A stretch of 64,000 bases of DNA, taken from the NCBI GenBank assembly GCA_028281845.1, contig JANQJD010000014.1, positions 124,001-188,000 of the forward strand, in the 5' to 3' direction. Origin of the DNA: Rhodospirillales bacterium. Its GTDB lineage: Bacteria; Pseudomonadota; Alphaproteobacteria; Rhodospirillales; Rhodospirillaceae. The translations under genes were made by a program, and so were the position numbers. Below are positions 9,222 through 52,791 of this stretch, one piece after another. The notes beneath the pieces are model-generated. The model was not told the origin of the DNA. It saw only the letters and a list, made by a program, of their open reading frames with translations, and did not search any database. How positions within the stretch are numbered: the stretch's first letter is position 1; each line of letters starts with the position of its first letter.

Positions 9222-9584
9222 ATGAGCCGTGTTAAAAGAGGCGTCACCGCCAACGCCCGTCATAAAAAGATACTTGCTATGGCCAAAGGTTATCAAGGCC
9301 GTAACGCCAAGGTCTTTCGTGTTGCAATAGAAAAAGTTGAAAAGGCCCTTCGCTACGCCTACCGTGACAGACGGAACCGTAAACGCGTATTTCGCACCCT
9401 TTGGATTCAACGCATTAATGCAGCTGTTCGTTCGCAGGGGATGACTTACAACAGCTTTATGAATGGTCTCAAGAAGTCTGGTGTAGTATTAGATCGTAAA
9501 GTATTAGCCGACCTTGCTGTTCATGAGCCAGAATCTTTTACAAATCTGGTTAAGCAGGCTGAAGCAGCACATTGTGCTCTTTAG
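9222..9584 (+). CDS. rplT: 50S ribosomal protein L20
   Basis: A 120-residue basic protein that binds 23S rRNA early in large-subunit assembly. The N-terminus [22 protein letters not shown] is highly conserved in L20, and the [24 protein letters not shown] segment is the family signature. A GAGGAGGG ribosome binding site lies directly upstream. In many bacteria L20 represses its own operon by binding the leader, so the hairpin before rpmI is of interest. The frame ends 75 bases before the start of pheS. Confidence 0.98.
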
Positions 9585-9658
9585 TACTCAATAGATCGAT
9601 CAGTCCTGGGTCATTCTATCCATCTTGGCAAACGCACAAAAGATACAGAGAGAAATAT

Positions 9659-10741
9659 ATGGAAGAGATGGAACAATCTCTCAGAGAGCTGGAAATGTGG
9701 CTCCAAGAGGCCCTGGCGGCAGCGGATTCAGTCGCTGCCGTTGAGGCACTGCGTGTTGCAACGCTTGGCAAAAAAGGTCGTCTCACAAGACTTCTGCAAA
9801 ATCTCAGGCACCTGCCTAAGAAAGAACGCGCACGCCAGGGAGCTGCCGCGAACATCCTTAAAAAAACTGCTCTTCACCTCATACAAACGCGGCTCTCCAC
9901 TCTGCAAAAAGCAGAATTAGATGCAAGTCTAGCCGCTGAACGGATAGATACCACCTTACCGGCGCGTCCCGAACAAATGGGCCGCATCCATCCCGTGAGT
10001 CAGACTCTTGACGAGATCATGGCCATTTTTGGCTGGATGGGTTTCACGGCCGTAGAGGGTCCAGAGATAGAAGATGATTTTCATAATTTCACGGCTCTTA
10101 ACATCCCCCCAGAGCACCCGGCCCGTCAGATGCATGACACATTCTATTTACCAGAAAGGGCAGATGGGAAACGATTTTTGCTGCGTACTCACACTTCACC
10201 TGTCCAAATTCGTGTCTTAGAAACAGAGCGACCACCGATTCATATCATTGCGCCTGGCCGTGTTTACCGTCGCGATTCAGATATGACCCATACACCGATG
10301 TTTCATCAGGTGGAAGGGCTTGTTGTTGATAGTACCATTAATTTTAGTAATATGAAAAATTGTATTTTATTATTTATTAATTCTTTTTTTGAGAAATATG
10401 ATATACAAATAAGATTTAGACCATCGTTTTTTCCCTTTACAGTACTTTCAGCAGAAGTGGATATCAACTCCGCAATTGAAAAAAAATTAATGACATGCAC
10501 CTCTTATGAAGGTTGGCTTGAAATCATAGGCTGCGGTATGGTCCATCCCCACGTATTAAACTCCTGTGGTCTTGATCCTGAACACTGGCAAGGATTTGCC
10601 CTTGGTATGGGGGTAGAACGTTTAGCCATGCTTAAATACGGAATTCCCGACCTCCGTACCTTTTATGAGCCAGATATACGTTGGCTACAGCATTATGGCT
10701 TGCTGTTTATGGATGTTCCAAGCGTCTTCGGACGAAGATAA
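9659..10741 (+). CDS. pheS: Phenylalanyl-tRNA synthetase alpha subunit
   Basis: The catalytic subunit of the (alpha-beta)2 enzyme that charges tRNA-Phe. Residues 1-80 form the coiled-coil that grips the tRNA. Class II motifs follow: the HPxxQ-like MGRIHPVSQT entry, motif 2 in RTHTSPVQIR and GRVYRRDSDMTHTPMFHQVEG, and motif 3 in GFALGMGVERLAMLKYGIPDLR. I choose ATG at 9659 (360 residues), because the open frame upstream of it has no family similarity and begins inside rplT. A short AT-rich stretch around 10340-10500 is translated normally and keeps the usual residues. It is followed by pheT after an 84-base spacer with a possible weak terminator. Confidence 0.97.
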   Translation: MEEMEQSLRELEMWLQEALAAADSVAAVEALRVATLGKKGRLTRLLQNLRHLPKKERARQGAAANILKKTALHLIQTRLSTLQKAELDASLAAERIDTTLPARPEQMGRIHPVSQTLDEIMAIFGWMGFTAVEGPEIEDDFHNFTALNIPPEHPARQMHDTFYLPERADGKRFLLRTHTSPVQIRVLETERPPIHIIAPGRVYRRDSDMTHTPMFHQVEGLVVDSTINFSNMKNCILLFINSFFEKYDIQIRFRPSFFPFTVLSAEVDINSAIEKKLMTCTSYEGWLEIIGCGMVHPHVLNSCGLDPEHWQGFALGMGVERLAMLKYGIPDLRTFYEPDIRWLQHYGLLFMDVPSVFGRR

Positions 10742-47476: not shown

Positions 47477-47552
47477 CCTGCTGGAGAAGAGGGAGGAGGT
47501 GTTGGTTTTCCCTCGGAAAATGCTCCTCACTCAAAGCAAGCTAAGAGGGCAA

Positions 47553-47598
47553 CGCCGCACGGAATTCAAATTTCCGCGGCGCTGGAGGGTTTTTTTTT
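47553..47598 (+). terminator. Probable terminator after rho
   Basis: CGCCGC...GGAA pairs with TTTCC...GCGGCG with a two-base bulge, ending at 47581, and nine T follow after eight bases (47590-47598). It lies 76 bases after the rho stop codon. Confidence 0.5.
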
Positions 47599-48416
47599 GA
47601 AAGACAAGACAAATACAAATTATAAGGTAGCACAAGAGCCCATTAGCACCTTCTGTCTTCCCTAACCAGGCCTCTGGCGCGAAATCAATTTTCAGCACTT
47701 TTCAGCACTTTTACCCTTTTTAGGAGTAGTCAGTTTTTGAGCTCCAGCATATCTACATATCTACCGCGCTGATGATATCCTTTCAGGAAATTTCCGCCGG
47801 TCGCTCTTCATGAGAAGAGAGGGTGTGGGAGGGTATTATTGTCCATTGTCCTATGGCGTGTGGCGATGTATCTTCAAGAGCCCACAAAGCGCCGCAAGCG
47901 CATGATTTTCCCCAGACTTACAGGCACAGGCAATCGCTTTATCCCCATCCCCGTCTTCCTGTGGCCGGTTCTTCATGAGCGCCTGATGAAAACATAAGAT
48001 TTCAGGCGTCTTCTCCACCTGTTTTTAGTGCCTGCGCGGCTTGGACAGACAGGATTGTGACGGATTTTCCCCCTTAACTTCTTCACTTCTGTCCAGTTTC
48101 TTGGAAACTTATATGGGAGGTAGAAAATGATCCTTTAAGGAGGATCTTTTAAGACAAAGACATTCCCTATGATCGAACTTGAAAGGGTCGTGTACCCGTA
48201 CCCTATCAGGGTGCAAAACCGCTGTAACGCTCTGGGCGATTTATCAGCCTTGACAGGGTACAGGAACTGATGCTCCCCTCCTCAGCATGAGGAGGCGTAA
48301 TACATGTACTGATAAAGTATAATAATTTTTAACAAGAATATACAGAAAAATGATATACTTCTATAGTATACATATTAAAATTCTTAATACAATTGGTGAG
48401 ACTCTTTTCCACTCAC
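47599..48416. other. Intergenic region with RNA-like folding in its right part
   Basis: About 820 bases between rho and the end of pal. No gene is recognisable. A 10 bp exact tandem duplication (TTTTCAGCAC, 47691-47710) is present. The right part (48190-48300) can form several stems and is listed separately. Confidence 0.5.
48190..48300. ncRNA. Possible structured RNA of unknown type
   Basis: GTACCCTATC (48198-48207) can pair with GACAGGGTAC (48252-48261) in nine of ten positions, while part of it can instead form a local hairpin ACCCT-ATC-AGGGT (48200-48212). A separate perfect stem CCTCCTCA-GCA-TGAGGAGG (48277-48295) follows. The arrangement resembles a small structured RNA or leader, but no known family motif is visible and neither strand is favoured. 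Confidence 0.25.
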
Positions 48417-48935
48417 TTAGAGTGCAGATCCCATGTTGACAACAGCGACGGTGCGTCTGTTTTGCGCCCAAGCTGTCTCGCCTGCACCAGTTACGGCAGG
48501 ACGTTCTTTGCCGTAAGAGAGAGTTGTAATCTGGTCCGGAGAGACACCTTGAGCAACAAGAAATTCCTTCACGGCATTAGCCCGTTTCTCTCCAAGGGCT
48601 AAGTTGTACTCACGAGTGCCGCGTTCATCCGCGTGCCCTTCAAGAGTTATGAGATGTTGTGGATGCTGTTTGATCCAGTCTACCCATCTTGTGAGCACAA
48701 GTTTTGCATCAGGACGCACAACATACTTGTCAAAGTCGAAAAAGATGCGATCCTGGCTCACGGCTGAATCAAATTCTCCCTGAGGCACTCCGGCAAGTGC
48801 AGGGACGTTTAGGGGTCCACTGTTGCTACTCATGTTATTCACTGTGTCTGTCACGCCAGTGGTCTTCCGAGGCGGAAACTCACACGCGGTTATCAATGTG
48901 ACAGTTACTAAGACACTCAATAGACGCAGTCTCAT
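48417..48935 (-). CDS. pal: Peptidoglycan-associated lipoprotein Pal
   Basis: An outer-membrane lipoprotein of the Tol-Pal envelope system. The signal peptide MRLRLLSVLVTVTLITAC ends in a lipobox, so the Cys would be acylated. The C-terminal OmpA-like domain has the peptidoglycan-binding motif LEGHADERGTREYNLALGEKRA. I choose ATG at 48935, with an AGGAG site upstream, giving 172 residues. It lies downstream of tolB in the usual order. tolQ, tolR and tolA are missing from their usual place. Confidence 0.95.
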   Translation of the reverse strand: MRLRLLSVLVTVTLITACEFPPRKTTGVTDTVNNMSSNSGPLNVPALAGVPQGEFDSAVSQDRIFFDFDKYVVRPDAKLVLTRWVDWIKQHPQHLITLEGHADERGTREYNLALGEKRANAVKEFLVAQGVSPDQITTLSYGKERPAVTGAGETAWAQNRRTVAVVNMGSAL

Positions 48936-49059
48936 TACTTGTGCTCCTGACTGAAACGCAGAGCTCGAATGCTGTTTCCAAGGATACAACACCCATCTAA
49001 TGCCGGCAATCCACTAATTGACAATTGACCAGAACTGACCAGGCTATAATTTTGAGTGG

Positions 49060-50418
49060 CTAAGGGTGCTGCAAAAGTAGCGGAGACCAAGAGGGGTCAG
49101 ATGCATCTTGCGGCGTTGCAACTAATCTTTCGTTGTATCCGGTGAGATCAACGCTGTACAAACGGGTAGATCCACCGCGTCCCTGAGCATCGGGCGATAT
49201 CTCACGAAAAAACAGTAGCATCTGGCCGTTAGGCGCCCACGTAGGAGATTCTACTAGAAATCCCTCAGCCAGCTGGCGTTCACCGGAACCGTCTGGCCTC
49301 ATAACGCCAATATAAAAGCGTCCACTTTTGAACTTCGTGAAAGCAATCAAATCTCCACGGGGAGACCAGACAGATGTCGCATAACGACCATCACCAAAAC
49401 TAATTCTCTGAACATCAGAACCATTTTTGTTCATCACATAAATCTGCTGTGTCCCACTACGATCGGAGTTAAAAGTAATCCGCAAACCATCTGCAGAGTA
49501 TGAGGGCGATGTATCAATGGCTGGATGGTGAGTCAGCTGTCGCAGATTGCGCGTCCGTAAATCCATTTCATAGATATCACTGTTACCCCGTTGCGTCATG
49601 CTCATTATAATTTTACTATTATCAGGTGAAAAACTTGGTGCGAATGTCATACCTGGGAAAGACCCCAGTAAATTCTGCTGATTCTTTTGAAGGTCTAATA
49701 AATAGACCTGCGGCACGTTGCGGAAATAGGACATGTAAACAATTTCATTTATTCTGGGAGAAAAGCGTGGCGTGAGTACTAACCAAGACCCGTCGCTAAG
49801 ATAACGGTGGTTTGCGCCATCCTGATCCATAATGGCGAGACGTTTAATGCGATGTGTAAGCGGTCCACTTTCAGCAATGTAAGCAACACGAGTATTAAAA
49901 TAGCTGCCCTCACCTGTAATATGTACATAGATAGAATCAGCAATCACATGCGCGATTCTACGCCAGTGTTCTGTGGGTGCAAAAAGAACATCTTGTACTA
50001 ATTTCTTTCTGGATGAGACATCCCAAAGAAAGAATTTTAATTGAATGTCTCCTTTTCCTCCAATATTTATTTCGCCACCGAGCAGTGCTTGAATTTTTAT
50101 CGCCTTCATGTCGGAAAACATGGCTTTTAGAGAGTCAATTTTTTGCAAAGATGTTGTGAGTAGAATCGGTCTGAAAAAACCTGAGCGTTCTAAATCTGCA
50201 GAAATGACATTAGCAATGCTATGGCCAAACTGGCTTTCTATCTTTGATGTGCCTACCAGATTGGTAATAGCGATTGGCATCGGCCGCGTGTAGCCACGAC
50301 TCACGTTAAGTGCCGGCTTGGCAGTGACTGTGTCTTGTGTACCCCAGACAAGAATGGTAGCCAGTCCAAGAGTCCTGAAAAGGAGGATCCACATGGACGT
50401 GATTAACAAACGGTGCAA
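49060..50418 (-). CDS. tolB: Tol-Pal system protein TolB
   Basis: A periplasmic beta-propeller that binds Pal and TolA. The N-terminus carries a signal-peptide-like hydrophobic stretch ([16 protein letters not shown]) ending near VTAKP, then the alpha-beta domain with [12 protein letters not shown], and the propeller with WD40-like repeats such as [33 protein letters not shown] and [13 protein letters not shown]. The start is either TTG at 50418, four bases after a G-rich site, or ATG at 50394. Length is close to 450 residues, normal for the family. It is left next to a gap where its partner genes should be. Confidence 0.94.
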
Positions 50419-51307
50419 CGGCCCCCCTTCTGATTGAAAAAATTCATTTTAATTTTATTATCAAAAATAATTTGAAAAATTACGCCCAAGAAATCACCAT
50501 TCATTTAATGATGCCTTTGAATAAAGAAGAATTTTTTAAAATTTAGTGCATTGCCAATATCACTTTATCACTTTACCGTGTGAGGACATTCACTGCATCG
50601 ATTGCTAAGCGATGGATCTAGAATAGGGCGTCATGCTGTTCTCAGCGCTTCAGAAGAACGCCTAAATCACCAAAAAATCATCCATCGATCGGCGGGATGT
50701 CAGACACTAATGCACTTCGCTGCCTCTGACAGAAGCACATGCGGTGCATACACGCTGAAGAAAAAATATCACAAGATTCGTGCACACGGGTTTCTGCCTA
50801 ATTCTTCGCAGAGAGATATTTAAAAAGCGCCCCATTCTCCTCTCTGAACTGAAAGCCCTCACCCATACACGGGCCATAGATTTTACATCATACACTTACC
50901 ATTTTATTCCTATAATTTCCTTTCATACTAAAATCTGGCGACTCCTGTGGAGCTTTACGTTTCAGAGGAGGCGCTACCATGTTTACCAATTTTTTTTAAC
51001 AGCATCGGCGGCTACTGTTGTCAGAAGCGCAACGTTGTCATTTGCATTCTCGGTACAACGGTACCTACATCCCTGCATAGTCGTCAGAAAACGGACGTCA
51101 GATGTGATGGAGTTTTTTTACGAAAATCAGTTGTGCTGAAAAAGATTGTCTCTTGCCCTGCACTGCACAGGCAATCATAACAAGATTTATCTTGGAATGA
51201 TGGACATGCCGAGAACCTGGACAATATCCTATCCTGGACACTACAGGACATCGAGAATAGCGAGCGATCACAAGTCTGGCTCTCCTGCAGCAGGAGCTCC
51301 CTCCGAA
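50419..51307. other. Gap replacing ruvA-ruvB-ybgC-tolQ-tolR-tolA
   Basis: About 890 bases with no recognisable gene. In alphaproteobacteria the run is yebC-ruvC-ruvA-ruvB-ybgC-tolQ-tolR-tolA-tolB-pal; here yebC-ruvC and tolB-pal face each other across this spacer in the right orientation. I could not see clear remnants of the six missing genes in any frame. Confidence 0.7.
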
Positions 51308-51829
51308 TTAATGGGACCTTTGTCTTTTTTCTGGAAGCCGAAGAGGAGTTGTGCGATAATGGGCGTGACAAATTGCTACGGCCAGGGCATCTGCTGCATC
51401 ATTGGTGTCATGATGACGTGGTCCGTATTCATGCACATGCAAAAGCCTATATACCATTAGTGCCACATGAACTTTTTTTGCATGGCCTGTCCCCACAACA
51501 GTCTTTTTGATCAGAGTAGGCTCATACTCGCTGACAGATAAACCAACCCTCGCTGGGACAAGAAGAATAACTCCACGTGCATGACAAAGCTTGACGGTGG
51601 TAATGGGATTGTTGTTCACAAACACTGTCTCAACCGCTGCTTCGTCTGGACAATAGTGAGAAATGGTTTCAGCTACGCCGTCATGAATCTGGACTAACCG
51701 TTCTGCCAGAGATAAACTGTTTTGGGAAGAGATCACCCCAGCGGCTATGTAGTGCAGCCGATCGCCATCCGCCTCTATGAGACCCCAGCCTGTTCTCCGC
51801 AAACCTGGATCCAACCCTAATAGTTTCAT
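51308..51829 (-). CDS. ruvC: Crossover junction endodeoxyribonuclease RuvC
   Basis: RuvC resolves Holliday junctions. The catalytic acids are visible: Asp7 in LLGLDPGLRRTGWG, Glu in DEAAVETVFVNNNP, and the last pair in HDTNDAADALAVAICHA. The length of 173 residues is standard. It follows yebC by 86 bases. Its usual partners RuvA and RuvB, which load and drive branch migration, are not next to it, so resolution must rely on copies elsewhere or on other helicases. The sequence itself looks intact. Confidence 0.96.
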   Translation of the reverse strand: MKLLGLDPGLRRTGWGLIEADGDRLHYIAAGVISSQNSLSLAERLVQIHDGVAETISHYCPDEAAVETVFVNNNPITTVKLCHARGVILLVPARVGLSVSEYEPTLIKKTVVGTGHAKKVHVALMVYRLLHVHEYGPRHHDTNDAADALAVAICHAHYRTTPLRLPEKRQRSH

Positions 51830-51915: not shown

Positions 51916-52701
51916 CTAAACTCCGAGGGAGTGCCCCTCTCTTGTGAGAGACAAGCGCGTTGTGAGAGGCTTGGGAATATTATAATTAGCTGCAACATAC
52001 TGCACGTCTTCGTTGTTTTCTAAACTTTCAAAAAATCTGAGTAGGTTCAGGGCTGTGCTTTCGTCTGTCACTGCAACAGTCATAGTCATTAAAGGCTGCC
52101 ACTCTAGCCGCGTCAAATCAGGCGCACACAAACGACGTTCTAGAGCCTCTCGGATAAGGCTGAGCTTCTCGGGAGCACAAGCAATCCTGTGGCCTGTTTC
52201 CCCAGAGCTCACATCGCTAGCACCAACATCAATGGCAATGTTTAAGATGGCATCGGCTGAAGCAACAGATGTTGAATAGTGAAATGTACAAATCCGTTCA
52301 AAGTAAAAAGCCACACTGTTAGTTTCCCCTAGCGAACCTCCGTTTTTGCTAAAGACAGCACGAATTTCACTGGCAGTGCGGTTACGATTATCAGTTAGTG
52401 TTTCGACTATCACTGCGACATTACCAGGACCATATCCTTCGTAGCGAATATACTCATATGGTAATCCATCACTCATTGCACGGACTCTTCCGAGCAAACG
52501 TTCAATTCTGTCTTTCGGCATATTCTGACTACGAGCTGTCTGAATAGCAGCACGCAAACGTGGATTTGACTCTGGGTGTGGCGGTCCTATCTTACACGCA
52601 ATCATAATCTCTCGTGCCAGTTTAGCAAACGCTCGTGCCCGCTTTGTGTCTATGGCCTCTTTACGAGACATGATATTCTTGAACTGCGAATGACCTGCCA
52701 T
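51916..52701 (-). CDS. yebC: YebC/PmpR family protein (TACO1 type)
   Basis: A cytosolic protein of the YebC family, linked to translation of difficult proline stretches and to gene control. The N-terminal MAGHSQFKNIMSRK signature is clear, as are MPKDRIERLLGR, YEGYGPGNVAVIVETLTDNRNRTAS-type and FSKNGGSLGETNSVAFYFER. ATG at 52701 gives 261 residues; the frame's earlier ATG would add five residues before the signature. It heads the yebC-ruvC pair and follows the ymdB gene in the typical order. Confidence 0.95.
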   Translation of the reverse strand: MAGHSQFKNIMSRKEAIDTKRARAFAKLAREIMIACKIGPPHPESNPRLRAAIQTARSQNMPKDRIERLLGRVRAMSDGLPYEYIRYEGYGPGNVAVIVETLTDNRNRTASEIRAVFSKNGGSLGETNSVAFYFERICTFHYSTSVASADAILNIAIDVGASDVSSGETGHRIACAPEKLSLIREALERRLCAPDLTRLEWQPLMTMTVAVTDESTALNLLRFFESLENNEDVQYVAANYNIPKPLTTRLSLTREGHSLGV

Positions 52702-52791
52702 GATGTTAAAATCCAATCTCTATGTTAACCCAGCCTAATATACAGCGTGGCATACAGAAAGAATTACCTGGCATTAATTGCCAGCGGCGTC

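Follow-up and report, generated by a model that had tools for sequence, protein, structure and literature searches.

Loss of ruvAB and tolQRA beside a retained ruvC and tolB–pal in a small-genome Rhodospirillales bacterium

How a bacterium might use the Holliday-junction resolvase RuvC without RuvA and RuvB, and the TolB–Pal pair without the TolQ/TolR proton motor, is the question raised by a single locus of a Rhodospirillales bacterium. In the window analysed here, a stretch of 64 000 nt, yebC and ruvC stand on one side of an 890-base interval and tolB and pal on the other, and an earlier note had described a six-gene block, ruvAB-ybgC-tolQRA, as missing between them. We consider it likely that these genes were lost in two steps of reductive evolution in a small-genome lineage, leaving a recombination pathway that would consist of RecA, RadA and RuvC, and a TolB–Pal module that would persist under selection without power; the functional part of this reading is drawn from gene content and divergence.

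The interval between ruvC and tolB

The four flanking genes are intact, lie on the minus strand and were identified by NCBIfam models above the TIGRFAM cut-offs. The left anchor yebC (51916–52716; NF001030/TIGR01033) is followed by ruvC (51308–51829; TIGR00228, 132.6 bits), whose 173 aa product keeps all four acidic residues, D7, E67, D144 and D147, in alignment. On the other side lie tolB (49060–50418; TIGR02800, 408 bits), whose true start is probably an ATG a few codons inside this ORF, and pal (48417–48992; TIGR02802), which encodes a lipobox (LITAC) and an OmpA-like peptidoglycan-binding domain. The order and strand of both pairs are those of relatives, as had been noted before, and yebC stands in the same order in the sister species and in relatives.

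No gene for RuvA, RuvB, YbgC, TolQ, TolR or TolA is present in the interval between ruvC and tolB, and a Pfam search of the ORFs in this interval, which reach 119 aa and overlap the relics described below, gave no match. The earlier description of non-coding bases replacing the genes was correct as to the absence of the genes, but most of the interval consists of what is left of a decayed ruvA and of the front half of a decayed ruvB. Translated comparison of positions 50419–51307 recovered relics of these two genes and none of tolQRA. The interval aligns collinearly along the sister species' ruvA–ruvB pair, and is broken by in-frame stops, frame breaks and deletions; the gapped local alignment score was 152.5, against a mean of 27.0 (sd 3.2, maximum 42.5) for shuffled sequence, 32 on the wrong strand and 26.5–36.5 against other stretches of the sister genome. 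The ruvA relic (50894–51307, minus strand) corresponds to about 9887–10551 of the sister locus, L014, and the ruvB relic (50584–50908, minus strand) to 9487–9910. Pieces of RuvB are still legible by tblastn among the stops and frame breaks (KSMARVW..VCTNLVIF and GDLGVLLKR*EQHDALF--*IHRLAID). The second half of ruvB, together with the spacer that separates it from tolB in the sister, is deleted here, and the AT-rich stretch at 50437–50583 (24% GC, no strand assigned) has no convincing counterpart in the sister and contains no recognizable TolQRA relic. A promoter and terminator scan of the gap gave no signal above chance, and a search for RNA families and tRNAs found none within the window.

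At the corresponding locus, the sister species of the same genus (G009, 1.4 Mb) has the order rho-cpoB-pal-tolB-ruvB-ruvA-ruvC-yebC, and both its ruvA (a 240 aa ORF) and its ruvB (362 aa) are intact. Its ruvB and tolB are separated by only about 110 bp, and ybgC and tolQRA are missing from its locus. In the nearest relative found (G011, locus L132), as in most members of the family, yebC-ruvCAB and tolB-pal are kept, and in relatives of this type ruvB and tolB lie about 3 kb apart, the gap including TolQ. The loss in the window species is wider than first described, because cpoB (ybgF), downstream of pal, is also a pseudogene relic (47500–48416, minus strand; alignment score to the sister gene 144.5, shuffled mean 25.6, sd 3.1). 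At this position the sister has an intact 321 aa ORF with TPR matches.

In the ruvAB relic the three codon positions show a flat profile of identity to the sister (0.72/0.79/0.73), but the profile is coding-like in ruvC (0.89/0.93/0.73) and tolB (0.91/0.92/0.78). The near-equal divergence of the three relic positions suggests that ruvAB was set free from constraint early after the species split, although aligning a relic tends to favour matching blocks.

A proposed recombination pathway with RuvC and RadA

Across the window genome (1.334 Mb in 18 contigs, 97.4% complete, so that about 2.6% may be missing), the RuvABC resolvasome is represented by RuvC, with RuvA and RuvB surviving only as pseudogene relics. 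Neither RuvA nor the C-terminal domain of RuvB (RuvB_C) had a profile match anywhere in this genome, and matches to RuvB models were all partial and scored at most 28.7 bits (25.6 bits for the full RuvB model); they fall in long frames that belong to other genes, and these frames give such weak matches in the sister too. Among the two congeners, RuvA and RuvB are absent only from the window genome.

A search with the RecG model found no RecG at the curated level in either congener. The same model detects an intact PriA in the sister (L141, 5361–7442) and has no match in the window genome, from which PriA may also have been lost. The long frames (about 1170 aa) that the RecG model picks up in relatives probably encode Mfd, and neither congener shows one. 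RecA is intact in the window genome. RadA/Sms is full length (TIGR00416, 532 bits) and carries a C4 zinc finger (CQSCG..CSLCG), the Walker A motif GDPGIGKST within a RecA-like ATPase domain, and the KNRFG motif.

Three bacterial routes of branch migration have been described, through RuvAB, RecG and RadA (PMC9129000); with RuvAB and RecG gone, RadA is therefore the sole known route left. The proposal that RuvC lacks a branch-migration motor thus holds for RuvAB, and extends to RecG, but RadA/Sms and RecA are both intact. In the pathway that we suggest, RecA would perform strand exchange, branch migration would fall to RadA/Sms, the one helicase known for this task in the genome, and RuvC would resolve the junctions. 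The genes are all observed; that RuvC works with RadA is probable.

Partial parallels to this arrangement have been reported. In a survey of 117 genomes, two had RecA without RuvAB, and both had kept RecG (PMC1193525); Wigglesworthia and Aquifex resemble the window genome in having RecA and no RuvAB, and differ from it in having RecG. In Wolbachia of isopods, ruvA has been neutralized and RuvAB migration impaired, with RuvC and RecA still in place, but RecG is under purifying selection there (PMC4224334), whereas the window genome has no RecG and RadA alone is left. Plant mitochondria also lack RuvAB, and in them RadA is the main branch-migration factor, although plant organelles still have RecG1 (PMC9129000).

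It could be argued instead that RuvC acts by itself, on reversed forks for instance, and that branch migration is spontaneous. In favour of such an arrangement, PriA is present in the sister but the window genome has no RecG-model match, so that replication restart may also be reduced there. However, the genome retains RecA and RadA, each intact and of full length, and we regard a RuvC that works without RadA as rather doubtful.

TolB and Pal without a motor

Of the energised Tol-Pal system, the TolB propeller and the Pal lipoprotein are present and the TolQ/TolR proton motor is absent. The window genome has no match to TolQ/ExbB/MotA (PF01618, TIGR02796) or to TolR/ExbD (PF02472), and no ExbB/MotA-type protein is left to stand in for TolQ. 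TolA is absent at the locus; the best match to the TonB_2 model in the window genome had an E value of 0.33, this model being weak for TolA even in relatives. Profile searches showed that the TolQ (MotA/ExbB/TolQ) and TolR (ExbD/TolR) families are absent from both congeners. As both lack TolQRA, all of the tolB-pal divergence between them postdates the loss of these genes.

This divergence indicates that tolB and pal are under purifying selection, and have been since TolQRA was lost. Pairwise dN/dS against the sister was 0.27 (0.19–0.35) for tolB, 0.21 (0.11–0.35) for pal and 0.18 (0.11–0.29) for ruvC, all far under 1, with no upper bound exceeding 0.35, and neighbouring genes ranged from 0.02 (rho) to 0.25. 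Constraint is distributed unevenly within the two envelope proteins, with dN/dS of 0.16 in the propeller and 0.41 in the N-domain of TolB, and of 0.07 in the OmpA domain and 0.57 in the N-terminal region of Pal.

The high values in the N-terminal parts of both proteins would be expected if tolB, pal and ruvC were functionless leftovers that have not yet decayed, as the adjoining cpoB and ruvAB already have. The window species also has 2.7 times as many private changes in TolB as the sister (30 vs 11, chi2 8.8), an excess possibly linked to the loss of cpoB, so that decay of TolB may have begun there; the counts were more balanced for Pal (7 vs 5), YebC (14 vs 14) and RuvC (9 vs 4, not significant). 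Against the idea of leftovers stand the low dN/dS values of all three genes, which for tolB and pal accumulated entirely after the loss of TolQRA, the retention by ruvC of a codon-position signal that ruvAB lost over the same interval, and the conservation of the RuvC catalytic residues and the TolB switch residues. We judge it improbable that the three genes are without function.

In Escherichia coli TolB, the N-terminus is the binding site for TolA and the propeller that for Pal (PMC7066135), so the split in rates between the two domains is the pattern expected if the constraint from TolA were lifted and that from Pal kept. On the stem branch of the genus, the N-domain changed 3.2-fold its expected share relative to the propeller (bootstrap 1.9–5.9), and, among TolB columns conserved in 36 relatives, 13 of 43 in the N-domain had changed compared with 15 of 143 in the propeller (Fisher p 0.003). 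The full tree gave an N-domain/propeller ratio of 6.1 for the stem, but two shorter internal branches were higher still, and more weight rests on the reduced-set bootstrap and the conserved-column test. When relatives were left out one at a time in the column test, four had higher odds ratios, but on the strength of only one to three changed N-domain columns each. The rate pattern is thus observed, and relaxation of the TolA constraint on the N-domain, with conservation of the Pal-binding propeller, is the cause that we infer. The force-switch residues of TolB (H146, D150 and T165 in E. coli) are all kept; the inter-domain switch is not visibly eroded, which counts against a simple story of relaxation.

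TolB and Pal, then, probably persist as an unpowered module of the outer membrane and cell wall. Pal would still tether the outer membrane to peptidoglycan, and TolB would cap Pal reversibly and keep it mobile. Release of Pal would occur by spontaneous dissociation of TolB instead of a pull by TolA, and Pal would not be directed to accumulate at the division site. Expectation from E. coli counts against such a module, since TolB in the absence of TolA would be predicted to hold Pal back from peptidoglycan. The half-life cited for spontaneous dissociation in vitro is about 2 min (PMC7066135).

Losses of Tol genes during genome reduction are known from Buchnera, Anaplasma and other intracellular bacteria, but there the tol-pal locus has been described as completely missing (PMC12204202), whereas here TolB and Pal are under selection without TolQRA. 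Blochmannia has likewise lost ybgC from its tol-pal operons, but retains tolQRA, tolB, pal and ybgF (PMC4389277).

Order and rarity of the losses

Since RuvA, RuvB, TolQ, TolR and RecG were not found elsewhere in a 97%-complete genome, we interpret their absence as loss rather than rearrangement, in agreement with the earlier note. The fragmentation of the assembly into 18 contigs, 97.4% complete, leaves some room for intact ruvAB and tolQRA elsewhere in the organism, but the lack of any RuvA, RuvB_C, TolQ, TolR or full RuvB match, the ruvAB relics in situ, which a moved gene would not leave, and the independent absence of TolQ and TolR from both congeners make a rearrangement or assembly gap very improbable.

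The sister has intact ruvAB directly beside tolB, and so ybgC-tolQRA left the locus before the species split, with ruvAB and cpoB decaying later. None of the six genes is intact at the locus, but the sister locus and the relics show that they did not go as one piece. The simplest reading of these loci would be a single loss of ybgC-tolQRA before the split, followed by that of ruvAB and cpoB. In the first step, a deletion of ybgC-tolQRA would have joined ruvB to tolB; RecG would have been gone by then, and probably Mfd too. In the second, confined to the window lineage, ruvAB and cpoB would have become pseudogenes, the remains of which are still visible.

The rarity of the two losses was assessed in 192 alphaproteobacterial genomes of at least 90% completeness, 184 of which have TolB. 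A TolQ-model match is missing entirely from just one of these 184, the window genome; in a second (G257, 450 contigs) TolB is present and the TolQ match is only marginal, and its tolQ may fall in an assembly gap. TolB without TolQ thus occurs in one, or at most two, of about 184 TolB-bearing genomes, consistent with the earlier statement that Tol-Pal usually goes or stays as a unit. RuvB is missing from 16 of the 192, including single-contig genomes of 1.2–1.4 Mb that keep TolQ and TolB. Loss of ruvAB is therefore uncommon, not rare, and what stands out is the retention of TolB–Pal without TolQ.

Two other arrangements were seen. Pelagibacteraceae loci (among L064–L106) have no ruvABC between yebC and tolB and, with the RuvB-less single-contig genomes that keep TolQ and TolB, form a mirror image of the window locus. 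In two 1.4 Mb genomes of the same class (G107 and G213), TolB and RuvB are both absent and the only TolQ-like match is a weak one (about 1e-18); their family may follow a different pattern of Tol loss.

Overall, we see roughly even chances that this genome holds a natural, selected TolB–Pal module without any proton motor of the TolQRA/ExbBD type, and that its homologous recombination has no known branch-migration helicase other than RadA to accompany RecA and RuvC. Current models give TolB the role of being pulled off Pal by TolA. A lineage in which the motor was lost before the species split, and in which TolB and Pal are still selected, represents a natural test of an unpowered TolB–Pal, and the rate split between the two domains of TolB gives a hint of which constraint TolA had imposed. 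The window genome also tests whether RuvC can make do with RadA as its one source of branch migration, and the two congeners represent a before-and-after pair for the loss of ruvAB.
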